The notes beneath the pieces are model-generated. The model saw only the letters and a program-made list of their open reading frames with translations, did not search any database and was not told the origin of the DNA. DNA of 64,000 nucleotides from Photobacterium swingsii (GTDB lineage Bacteria > Pseudomonadota > Gammaproteobacteria > Enterobacterales > Vibrionaceae). Each line of letters begins with the position of its first letter. The first letter of the stretch is position 1. The stretch is taken from contig NZ_AP024852.1 in assembly GCF_024346715.1 (NCBI RefSeq), forward strand, positions 496,001 to 560,000, in the 5' to 3' direction. Position numbers and translations under genes: made by a program. Shown one piece after another: positions 31,034 through 33,529 of the stretch.

Positions 31034-31497
31034 AAAAAACTAACCTTCCATTGGTCTCGAACGCAGATATTATAAAACAGCACACATTTCACTTTTGTGA
31101 CTGAATTAGCATAACGCGTCTATTATTTCCTATTGATTGGTTTATTTATTTGCTCTTATTTATATCAAAAGTGATTTATTCTGTTTTAGGTTGTTTTTCA
31201 TCTAACCATACCAACGGTGAATAAATCACCGCACCTGCATATTACCTAACGCTTACCTATTGTTTTATAAAGAATTAAAAACAGTAACTTTATCATTTTG
31301 ATAGCTTAATTATGCTTATTTGATTTTATGCCTGTTTAATGTTTGAACAGCCGTAGTATGACGGTCGCTGATATTCAGTGTTTTGTGCTGTTATTACCCA
31401 CTGGTATTAGCAGTGGATTTGTTTTGGATCAATACAAGGTTTTTGGCGTACGCCAATAATGGGTTTATGGCGTATGCCAATAACAGTTGAGGACACA
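31034..31497. other. Long AT-rich regulatory gap before the DUF134 cluster
   Basis: About 460 bases without a supported gene. It must hold the promoter of the small minus-strand gene and that of the DUF134-NifX-NqrM set. A 6-bp inverted repeat CCACTG / CAGTGG (31398-31416) and two larger palindromes at 31443 and 31467 are present. No clear sigma-70 promoter could be fixed. Confidence 0.6.
31443..31480. promoter_or_regulatory. Two tandem palindromic operators before the DUF134 gene
   Basis: TTGGCGTACGCCAA (31443-31456) is a perfect 14-bp palindrome. ATGGCGTATGCCAA (31467-31480) is a near copy with two changes. They are 24 bases apart centre to centre and are embedded in a longer direct repeat ending CCAATAA. 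The second ends 17 bases before the DUF134 start codon, overlapping the leader. This is a typical layout for autoregulation by a small HTH protein; the binder is inferred. Confidence 0.75.
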
Positions 31498-31812
31498 ATG
31501 GCTAGACCGAAACTTGCACGACGTATTGGCTGCAGACCAGCCTATAGCTGTTTTAAGCCTAATGGTGTGCCTATGTCTGAGTTATCGCATCACCAGTTGG
31601 CTGCTGATGAATTGGAAGCGATTCGTCTGGTGGATTTTATGGGATTACAGCAACAACCTGCTGCGGAGCAGCTCGGAGTTTCTCGGCAAACGCTGGGTAA
31701 TATCTTGGCCTCTGCACGTAAGAAGACAGCACAAGCCCTAGTCGAAGGGATGGCGTTAGAGTTGCAACCAGCCTCGTTAGCCGATACGCAGGCAGTGAAT
31801 AATAAAGAATAA
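31498..31812 (+). CDS. DUF134 helix-turn-helix DNA-binding protein
   Basis: From the ATG at 31498, which has GAGGA 5 bases upstream, this is a 104-residue DUF134 protein. It shows the family start MARPKLARRIGCRPAYSCFK, a short Cys-containing region, LAADELEAIRLVDFMGL, and a sigma-70 region-4-like helix-turn-helix (AAEQLGVSRQTLGNILASAR). DUF134 proteins are usually next to NifX/NafY-like genes, as here. The role is probably a regulator of this cluster, perhaps sensing an iron-sulphur or metal state through its cysteines; that is inference. Confidence 0.9.
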   Translation: MARPKLARRIGCRPAYSCFKPNGVPMSELSHHQLAADELEAIRLVDFMGLQQQPAAEQLGVSRQTLGNILASARKKTAQALVEGMALELQPASLADTQAVNNKE

Positions 31813-31863
31813 TTTAATAACCCAATTCTTAGTGAATAAGATTGAATCAGAGAGAATTTCGAA

Positions 31864-32331
31864 ATGTTACGAGCAATAGCTGTGAATGCAGCGAACAACG
31901 TGGCAGGCCATTTTGGTAAAGCCCCAGAATTTGCAGTATACGACGCGCAAGGTCAGTTGATTGAGCGCATGATCAACAGCGGTAGCAAAGCGGTAGGGTG
32001 TAAGCATAAAAAACAGCTTCAGCGCCGTTTGAGCGAGTTAGGTGTGCAAGAAATTGTACTGGGCAGTATTGGTCAGCGCTCACTTGCTCGCTTGTTAAAT
32101 GCTGGATTTGTGGTGAGCCAAGTGGCTGCTCGGACGCCTGTCAGTGATGTGTTAGCAGGGACGGCAAATAAGTTGAATTTAACGGCTGCTGAGCATGGCC
32201 GGCCGTGTAAACGGGAAAAAGGAGAGTGTGGCTGCGGTTGTGGTAGCAAAAAAGCGGCTGCACCTAAAATTGGCATGATGATGAATAGTATGTCGCGTTT
32301 GTCTGGTCTTAGTCGTATTAAACTTAAATAA
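31864..32331 (+). CDS. NifX/NafY-like (dinitrogenase Fe-Mo cofactor family) protein with Cys-rich tail
   Basis: A 155-residue protein whose first ~105 residues match the dinitrogenase iron-molybdenum cofactor domain: RAIAVNAANNVAGHFGKAPEFAVYD and the LGSIGQRSLARLLNAGF segment. In nitrogen fixers such proteins carry or insert metal clusters; no nif gene is seen here. The tail holds CKREKGECGCGCGSKK, with five cysteines in a short span, then a basic end. A metal or cluster-binding role is plausible. It lies 51 bases after the DUF134 gene and 11 before nqrM. Confidence 0.88.
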   Translation: MLRAIAVNAANNVAGHFGKAPEFAVYDAQGQLIERMINSGSKAVGCKHKKQLQRRLSELGVQEIVLGSIGQRSLARLLNAGFVVSQVAARTPVSDVLAGTANKLNLTAAEHGRPCKREKGECGCGCGSKKAAAPKIGMMMNSMSRLSGLSRIKLK

Positions 32332-32342
32332 GGAAGGGACCG

Positions 32343-32549
32343 ATGACTTATCTATTAACCCTAGCGATTTTCTTGTGTGTGATAGCAGCAATGGCAATTG
32401 GCTGGATAGTGAAGAAAAAAACGATAGCAGGTAGCTGTGGTGGCTTAGCCAATGTGGGTATCGATAAAGAATGCGACTGCGAAGAAGTGTGTGATACCCA
32501 TAAGCTGTATCAAATTCAAGAGCCTTCTGCGAAGCCTTCAGAGCAATAA
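32343..32549 (+). CDS. nqrM: Na+-NQR maturation factor NqrM
   Basis: A 68-residue protein with one N-terminal membrane helix (TLAIFLCVIAAMAIGWIV) and the DUF539/NqrM cysteine block GSCGGLANVGIDKECDC, then EEVC (C32, C44, C46, C50). NqrM is needed to deliver iron for the Fe centre between NqrD and NqrE of the Na+-pumping NADH:quinone oxidoreductase. It is normally the last gene of the nqr-apbE operon; here it follows the NifX-like gene by 11 bases. Whether a second copy exists in the genome cannot be seen. Confidence 0.88.
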   Translation: MTYLLTLAIFLCVIAAMAIGWIVKKKTIAGSCGGLANVGIDKECDCEEVCDTHKLYQIQEPSAKPSEQ

Positions 32550-32560
32550 ACGAGGGGATG

Positions 32561-32600
32561 ACCGCGATATGATGTCGCGGTTATTTAGTTTTATTAGGGC
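32561..32600 (+). terminator. Terminator of the DUF134-NifX-NqrM set
   Basis: A 7-bp GC-rich stem accgcga / tcgcggt with a 7-nt loop is followed by TATTTAGTTTTATT. It overlaps the end of the convergent LysR gene. Confidence 0.7.
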
Positions 32601-33529
32601 TGGCGTAGCGTATGGACGCGTTCAGTGACCGTATCTTTCACTATTTGGCGTAACCAAGTGAGCTTTGGATGATCCGTATTACGGCGTTGCCACAATAAGT
32701 TAATGTCGAAGTCAGCAATGTCGACGGGCGGTGGGCACTGCGTGAGCTGGTCGTTAAAAATATCGAGTTGTGCCATTAAACGCGATACCACACAAATCAA
32801 GTTTCGCCCCGTCAATAGGTGGCGAATAGTGAGAAAATTTCGCGACCCTAATGCGATATGGCGCTGGAAGCCTTGGTCGGCCAGTTGTTGATCAATCCCG
32901 CTGCACAATACGCCATCGGGCGAGACCAGCGCATGTGGCGTCATGATATAACGCGCTAGGCTGACTGGTGCGGTTAACCCTGTTGCGGCGCTGTCAAATA
33001 AGCAAACATGATCTTCGGTATATAAATACTGGCTTTCAAGTTCTTTGCTATTTGTGTGCATAGAGCCAATCACAATATCAACATGACGATCGCTAAACGC
33101 ATTGAGATAATTATGTCGATCGATGTTACAAAAGCTGAGATGGCATTGTGGCGCGAGTTGTTGCAAGGTATCGAACAGCGCTGGGGCAAAAAGCAGTTCG
33201 GCGTAATCGGTCAAGCCAATGGTAAAAGTGCCTGTGTAATCATCAGGCACAAATTGCTCTGGCTGCAGGACTTGATTGGTGATCATTGCCAAAATGGTAT
33301 CAACTGTTGGCGCAAGATCAATTGCCCGCGCAGTAGGCACCATAAGGTGCCCCTGACGCTCGAATAAAGGGTCGCCAAGTAATAGACGTAAGCGCGATAA
33401 ATTGTGACTCATTGCAGATTGGCCGATTGACAATTTATCGGCTGCTCGCGTGACGCTGCGGTGTTCCATCAGAGCTGAAAAAGCCACTAGTAAATTTAGA
33501 TCCACACCGCGCCAGTTAATCGACTTCAT
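32594..33529 (-). CDS. LysR-family transcriptional regulator
   Basis: A 311-residue LysR regulator of unknown target. The N-terminal helix-turn-helix (DLNLLVAFSALMEHRSVTRA, then IGQSAMSHNLSRLRLLLGDPLF) resembles the NodD/LeuO/PcpR branch. The effector domain has IGLTDYAELLFAP and a late RRNTDHPKLTWLRQIV typical of that branch. The gene is convergent with nqrM and followed on its 5' side (43 bases) by the ybaK-ygfZ pair on the same strand, so it may be transcribed together with them. Its ligand is unknown. Confidence 0.9.
   Translation of the reverse strand: MKSINWRGVDLNLLVAFSALMEHRSVTRAADKLSIGQSAMSHNLSRLRLLLGDPLFERQGHLMVPTARAIDLAPTVDTILAMITNQVLQPEQFVPDDYTGTFTIGLTDYAELLFAPALFDTLQQLAPQCHLSFCNIDRHNYLNAFSDRHVDIVIGSMHTNSKELESQYLYTEDHVCLFDSAATGLTAPVSLARYIMTPHALVSPDGVLCSGIDQQLADQGFQRHIALGSRNFLTIRHLLTGRNLICVVSRLMAQLDIFNDQLTQCPPPVDIADFDINLLWQRRNTDHPKLTWLRQIVKDTVTERVHTLRQP

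Follow-up and report, generated by a model that had tools for sequence, protein, structure and literature searches.

We know of no function for the DUF134 family, and to our knowledge little is understood of how Na+-NQR acquires its buried [2Fe-2S] cluster. The gene for the Na+-NQR maturation factor NqrM (DUF539) typically lies in the nqr operon, a location that does not define the protein family. According to the available text of PMC12174285, NQR requires NqrM for its [2Fe-2S] cluster, and in V. cholerae nqrM is co-transcribed with the nqr genes; in V. natriegens, the available part of PMC6209661 places apbE and nqrM downstream of nqr. Here, we compare these systems with a cassette from Photobacterium swingsii that carries a further NqrM-family gene. 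The window analyzed, a stretch of 64,000 nucleotides, corresponds to C1:496001-560000 of a 5.65 Mb genome in two contigs.

The cassette and the canonical nqrM gene

A preliminary description of this DNA had reported three plus-strand genes, separated by gaps of 51 and 11 bases, with tandem palindromes before them and a hairpin after them, and each of these was found where it had been placed. The first gene (31498..31812, plus strand) encodes a DUF134 helix-turn-helix protein of 104 aa (PF02001, 77 bits against a cut-off of 27, with weaker matches to HTH and sigma-70 region 4 models), which is the probable regulator of the cassette. A longer alternative start is open at 31459 and overlaps the second palindrome, while the start at 31498 matches the homologues, which begin M-x-RP. 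The second gene (31864..32331, plus strand) encodes a NifX-like protein of 155 aa with a Cys-rich tail, CGCGCG (PF02579, 56 bits, cut-off 26.3). The third (32343..32549, plus strand) encodes an NqrM-like protein of 68 aa, hereafter NqrM2, with a hydrophobic N-terminal stretch and cysteines at positions 32, 44, 46, and 50 (PF04400, 71 bits, cut-off 22). Near its end, at 32505..32525 on the plus strand, lie the codons of LYQIQEP, recognized by alignment and homologue comparison as the NqrM2 signature. A sequence-based structure look-up returned weak matches of the DUF134 protein to 7bhy (E 0.053) and of the NifX-like protein to 1rdu (E 0.041), and no match for NqrM2. The best 20 of the 80 loci kept were from Photobacterium, and their identity to the NqrM query did not exceed 94%.

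Downstream of the cassette is a terminator-like hairpin of 14 pairs followed by AGTTTTATTA (32556..32586, plus strand). The RNA fold of 32545-32605 had a z of -2.98, and 3 of 200 shuffles were equally good. A LysR-family regulator gene (32594-33529, minus strand) is convergent with the cassette, and the hairpin may be the shared end of both transcripts.

A PF04400 profile search of the genome gave two matches, namely the cassette copy and a canonical nqrM. The latter lies directly after apbE and downstream of nqrA-F, 2.4 Mb from the cassette, so that the cassette NqrM (C1:0.53 Mb) is outside the nqr operon (C1:2.89-2.90 Mb). At the operon (L121), NCBIfam models confirmed each of the six genes nqrA-F; ApbE was matched by Pfam, its NCBIfam model scoring below its cut-off. 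The canonical gene in the same genome argues against the earlier reading of the cassette as a dedicated NqrM system. That reading was to be abandoned if a second nqrM sat in the nqr operon and loss of the cassette left NQR activity unchanged; the first half of this pair is what we found after apbE.

NqrM subfamilies and their partners

To place the cassette protein within its family, a tree of 79 rows was built from the 30 best-scoring family matches, 20 canonical copies, and the cassette loci; identical sequences were merged, and L132 was dropped both here and from a second tree of 74 rows. In this short alignment of 77 columns, which left many inner forks poorly supported, a single branch with support 100/99 separated 38 cassette-type rows from 41 canonical ones, L110 (G386) having been placed in the canonical group by hand. 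The split by type was present in all 200 bootstrap trees, and the same branch appeared in the 74-row tree. Since the two types fall on opposite sides of the 100/99 branch, the cassette NqrM constitutes a separate subfamily, NqrM2. Its C-terminal LYQIxEP-type signature (YQI, HQI, or YHI) occurred in 38/38 cassette-type rows and 0/41 canonical rows, and in 118 of the 120 best homologues (best 120 of 4420, E <= 1e-3), the other two being near-misses. C32, C44, C46, and C50, together with Q-I-x-E of the signature, were invariant in all 18 aligned NqrM2 rows. A few members have lost a Cys, as in L099, a locus outside the 18-row alignment in which the last one is missing.

NqrM2 branches are longer than those of canonical NqrM, and with the occasional Cys loss this makes a changed role possible. 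The same two features would be expected if NqrM2 were a duplicate, redundant or in decay, that linkage has preserved. We consider this highly improbable, given an old single subfamily that spans several families and has retained a near-invariant signature, its cysteines, and its operator.

The second NqrM of G507, G511, and G532 was considered as a canonical copy and rejected, as all three carry LYQI(Q/S)EP. Conversely, the NqrM near DUF134 in G386 is not type 2 but canonical. It ends an apparent second nqr operon (L110, 5091-13001), seen in this one genome and situated just downstream of an oppositely oriented DUF134-NifX pair.

The second NqrM co-occurs with DUF134. Among 121 Vibrionaceae genomes, NqrM was present in all, DUF134 in 73 (absent in 48), and two NqrM copies in 62. 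DUF134 was found in 62/62 genomes with two copies and in 11/59 with one (p 1.9e-23, a value that overstates independence, since the genomes are related). Within Photobacterium, 29 of 36 genomes had both DUF134 and a second NqrM, and 7 had neither. Of 247 genomes surveyed across the order, DUF134 exceeded its cut-off in 43, and all 21 with two NqrM copies were DUF134-positive. With the 18 Vibrionaceae removed, the remaining 229 gave DUF134 in 13/13 genomes with two copies and in 22/216 others (p 2.7e-12). A survey of 239 genomes drawn evenly from the class had DUF134 over cut-off in five, including the genome of the window. The 48 Vibrionaceae that lack DUF134 indicate that one NqrM is evidently enough without the cassette. 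In all 11 single-NqrM, DUF134-positive Vibrionaceae, NqrM was on a different contig from DUF134; hence NqrM2 was in no case seen to replace the canonical copy.

Physical linkage was also common, and adjacency reaches well beyond the single strain described before. No more than 772 bases separated the second NqrM, in most cases called NqrM2 by this location and not by sequence, from the DUF134 match in 60/62 Vibrionaceae and 10/13 other genomes of the order with two copies. In G104 and G112 the second NqrM adjoins a NifX-like gene instead of DUF134, and the copies of G507, G511, and G532 lie apart from DUF134, yet are of type 2. Forty cassette-type loci (L194-L233) from Photobacterium, Aliivibrio, Vibrio, Grimontia, and Motilimonas comprised 27 with DUF134, NifX, and NqrM2 in line, 11 with NifX-NqrM2 and a convergent DUF134, and 2 without NifX.

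These loci bear on the earlier proposal of a dedicated delivery line in which NqrM receives iron or a cluster from the NifX-like protein. In its favor, the three genes stand together in 38/40 of them, and nearly all NifX-like proteins compared have Cys-rich tails. The partners are nevertheless separable in both directions. Aliivibrio G029 had no PF02579 match in its whole genome (E <= 1e-3) and keeps DUF134, two operators, and an intact NqrM2; two further Aliivibrio loci, L217 and L231 (the locus of L277/G039), have no NifX at the locus between DUF134 and NqrM2. The type 2 copies of G507, G511, and G532 are unlinked from NifX, and several other families of the order have DUF134-NifX with no NqrM2, as do the five plasmids inspected (see below). 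We therefore regard the delivery line as very unlikely, and an obligate transfer from NifX to NqrM is contradicted by the Aliivibrio loci. Moreover, since LYQISEP is retained without NifX, the signature is not simply a NifX docking motif. In the genome of the window the cassette protein is the only PF02579 match, so that no nif genes were found by this model besides it, and 14 DUF134-negative Vibrionaceae genomes had no PF02579 match.

Operator and promoter region

Two palindromes spaced by 24 bp precede the DUF134 gene. Operator 1, TTGGCGTACGCCAA (31443..31456), is a perfect palindrome, and operator 2, ATGGCGTATGCCAA (31467..31480), has one mismatch to TTGGCRTAYGCCAA. When the whole genome was scanned with up to one mismatch, the pattern occurred in 17 places, compared with 4 for a reversed control pattern. 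The cassette site was the sole exact match, no other pair was equally close, and no operator was found near the nqr operon.

Next, we asked how the site is distributed over DUF134 loci. Upstream of DUF134, TTGGCRTAYGCCAA occurred with up to two mismatches in 72/96 distinct regions (0.1 expected by shuffling) and with up to one mismatch in 51/96 (0.0 in shuffles), counts in which many regions come from close relatives and loci 141-193 were left out. Where the locus contained NqrM2, the operator lay before DUF134 in 45/57 regions. The 24 regions without it include the type with convergent DUF134. In that arrangement, a site with at most one mismatch preceded NifX (-NqrM2) in 15/15 loci examined, whereas upstream of DUF134 no site better than four mismatches was found in 11 convergent loci. 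A site of the same quality precedes NifX in L139, a stretch with no DUF134; the 17th locus examined, L258, has neither NifX nor DUF134. Judged by position, the operator travels with NifX/NqrM2. As TTGGCATATGCCAA stands before DUF134, or before NifX-NqrM2 where DUF134 is convergent, DUF134 most likely controls NqrM2, and by this association it is the putative binder of the palindrome. The preliminary description of a conserved cassette with its own operator thus holds at many loci, and its proposal of DUF134 as the regulator gains from the same placement.

The unlinked NqrM2 genes offered a further comparison. In G507 an exact operator is flanked on one side by NqrM2, at a distance of about 280 bp, and on the other by a divergently oriented gene for a 4HBT thioesterase, and TTGGCA, 17 bp, and TAGAAT point toward NqrM2; lying between two genes, the site may serve NqrM2, the thioesterase gene, or both. 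G511 has a site with three mismatches about 25 bp upstream of NqrM2, and near that of G532 no operator with up to three mismatches was found. No regulon claims were based on operator counts over 12 genomes (96 places, compared with 29 when the pattern was reversed), because these counts are confounded by repeated TTGGCTTACGCCAA/TTGGCGTAAGCCAA sites. These repeats, perhaps integron-type, were seen in G000 (C1:1727974, C1:1747341, C2:76155, C2:477166, and C2:479439) and in G082 on C3.

Upstream of the palindromes, TTGTTTTGGATCAA (31419..31432, plus strand) is, by comparison with the consensus, a putative FNR/CRP-like site. Only its right arm, GATCAA, is conserved. In 26/26 distinct regions upstream of DUF134-NqrM2 in Photobacterium, this half-site lies 9-10 bp before the operator, and it may serve an activator of the FNR/CRP type. 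Its spacing to a candidate -10 box, AATAAT (31455..31460, plus strand), would fit a class II activator site. When 31200-32700 was scanned with consensus patterns, the plus strand gave no sigma-70-like promoter, and in the window a 17-bp spacing from the first palindrome yields only TATGGC. In aeromonad-type loci and two of the plasmids described below, 17 bp separate the TTGGCA (or TTGCAT) of the first palindrome from a TATAAA or TATATA beyond it, a spacing that would suit a repressor site over the -35 element.

The role of NqrM2 and comparison with known systems

Which complex NqrM2 serves was approached through the presence of its potential clients. All 192 NqrM-positive genomes among the 247 of the order had nqrA over cut-off, in keeping with the link to NQR drawn previously. 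Fourteen nqrA-positive genomes of the order, mostly of group f170, had no PF04400 match. rnfC was over cut-off in 49/50 DUF134-positive genomes tested; since nearly all cassette genomes have NQR as well as RNF, presence cannot single out the client. Maturation of RNF by NqrM2 would agree with the near-universal rnfC and with the homology of the RnfA/RnfE [2Fe-2S] site to that of NqrE/NqrD noted in the available text of PMC12174285. The same text credits E. coli with RNF (Rsx), yet 14 control genomes, E. coli among those named, had no PF04400 match. In addition, G523, from the Psychromonas group, has NqrM2 and nqrA with no rnfC over cut-off and only a weaker match with stops, a point that weighs little in an assembly of 350 contigs. 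RNF is, in our judgment, quite an unlikely client. As for expression, the available part of an RNA-seq study of P. damselae at 25 C compared with 15 C (PMC6312309) shows lower expression at 25 C of two adjacent genes, the NifX-like VDA_001251 (-6.1) and the NqrM VDA_001252 (-3.0). Judging from how the genes are arranged at L205, a P. damselae locus, these would be the cassette genes; the DUF134 gene is not mentioned in that part.

The neighbors of DUF134 elsewhere widen the picture. A PaaI-like thioesterase family had 21 members across 40 wide DUF134 loci, with 4HBT in all three scanned, and other DUF134 operons also carry an ArsR-type regulator nearest BigR. In L111 and L112 (G507 and G547), DUF134 is followed by a Fur-like regulator and then by a CoA-disulfide reductase with a rhodanese domain. 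A total of 189 plasmid records contained DUF134 (Klebsiella 69, Citrobacter 57, Escherichia 17, and others), and 8 records labeled plasmid contained NqrM-family matches. Five enterobacterial and Aeromonas plasmids were inspected (L280-L284), whose DUF134-NifX(-PaaI) modules sit among transposases. A NifX-like gene was next to DUF134 in 5/5, a PaaI thioesterase was nearby in 4/5, and no NqrM2 stood beside the pair in any of the five. Further plasmid neighbors were a TehA/SLAC1-type channel, Dps, and an FAD enzyme identified as CoA-disulfide reductase with a rhodanese domain. Palindromes with up to three mismatches before DUF134 were paired in 4/5 plasmids, with a single listed site in the fifth, against a background of 1.1-2.2 such sites in each shuffled stretch of about 10-12 kb. 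The literature search found no paper pairing DUF134 with NifX, PaaI, or NifB, and the apparent mentions of DUF134 in the text portions returned were prefix matches to other DUF numbers. Among the matches listed, by titles and abstract openings, the palindrome core was not found as a regulator site.

These neighbors hint at reactive-sulfur or metal stress as the setting. They also lend substance to a different role, in which NqrM2 has left NQR and become a membrane-anchored protein for metal or sulfur handling in a DUF134-controlled stress regulon. Besides the thioesterase, reductase-rhodanese, channel, Dps, and ArsR-type genes, its specific signature in all 38 rows and its faster evolution would fit such a departure. 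Set against it are the retention of the four cysteines and the NqrM domain, and the confinement of NqrM-family proteins in the order to nqrA-positive genomes. We consider a role outside NQR unlikely, though the most serious of the competing explanations.

At the level of sequence, two NqrM subfamilies, co-occurrence with DUF134, and an operator that follows the genes are established; the comparison suggests that NqrM2 serves as a reserve assembly factor whose production is limited to particular conditions. The explanation we favor, tentatively and at slightly less than an even chance, is that the cassette is a conditional branch of NQR maturation in which DUF134-controlled NqrM2 matures the NqrD/NqrE [2Fe-2S] site. 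By binding the two palindromes of its promoter region, DUF134 would control, and probably repress, the operon. A signal, which could be low oxygen, metal, or reactive-sulfur stress, would relieve DUF134, whereupon the NifX-like metal- or cluster-binding protein and NqrM2 would be made. NqrM2 would then act like canonical NqrM, at the membrane and via its four cysteines, and would supply or repair its presumed client, the [2Fe-2S] site between NqrD and NqrE, when the housekeeping NqrM of the nqr operon is insufficient, the NifX-like protein being an optional helper and not a required carrier. More broadly, and with somewhat less confidence, DUF134 proteins could form a widespread family of regulators that, both on marine chromosomes and on enterobacterial plasmids, act through TTGGCATATGCCAA to control an accessory regulon for metal/sulfur stress; the regulon of Vibrionaceae, Psychromonas, and Motilimonas would include a stress-time NqrM that rebuilds the membrane [2Fe-2S] cluster of NQR.

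If the favored explanation is true, NQR has one housekeeping and one conditional assembly factor. NqrM2 under its own operator in about half of the surveyed Vibrionaceae would then mean regulated pump assembly. NqrM and NqrM2 form a natural protein pair for comparison, and the palindrome is a concrete candidate for the DNA site of DUF134 proteins, which many enterobacterial plasmids encode as well.

The NifX-like protein shares the PF02579 domain with the NifX / NafY / orange protein (ORP) family and differs from it by its Cys-rich tail; it fails the nitrogenase NifX equivalog TIGR02663 (24.7 bits, cut-off 112), and its matches to the MrpORP, NifX, and NifB models are weak and all below the NCBIfam cut-offs. 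The plasmid DUF134-NifX(-PaaI thioesterase) modules resemble the cassette in having DUF134 followed by a NifX-like gene and palindromes upstream; unlike it, they have no NqrM beside them, their partners being the CoA-disulfide reductase-rhodanese, SLAC1 channel, and Dps genes. NqrM2 and canonical NqrM share a Pfam family, a hydrophobic N-terminal stretch, and four cysteines. However, canonical NqrM has PEPCDARKK...RII, whereas NqrM2 has LYQIxEP, forms a separate branch, and is encoded away from the nqr operon, behind a DUF134-type operator; every surveyed genome that has it also has a canonical NqrM. A further parallel is one of analogy only, with no homology: as Suf serves Fe-S assembly under stress and Isc serves it as the housekeeping system, NqrM2 would be the second, conditional assembly factor for a site similar to that served by NqrM.
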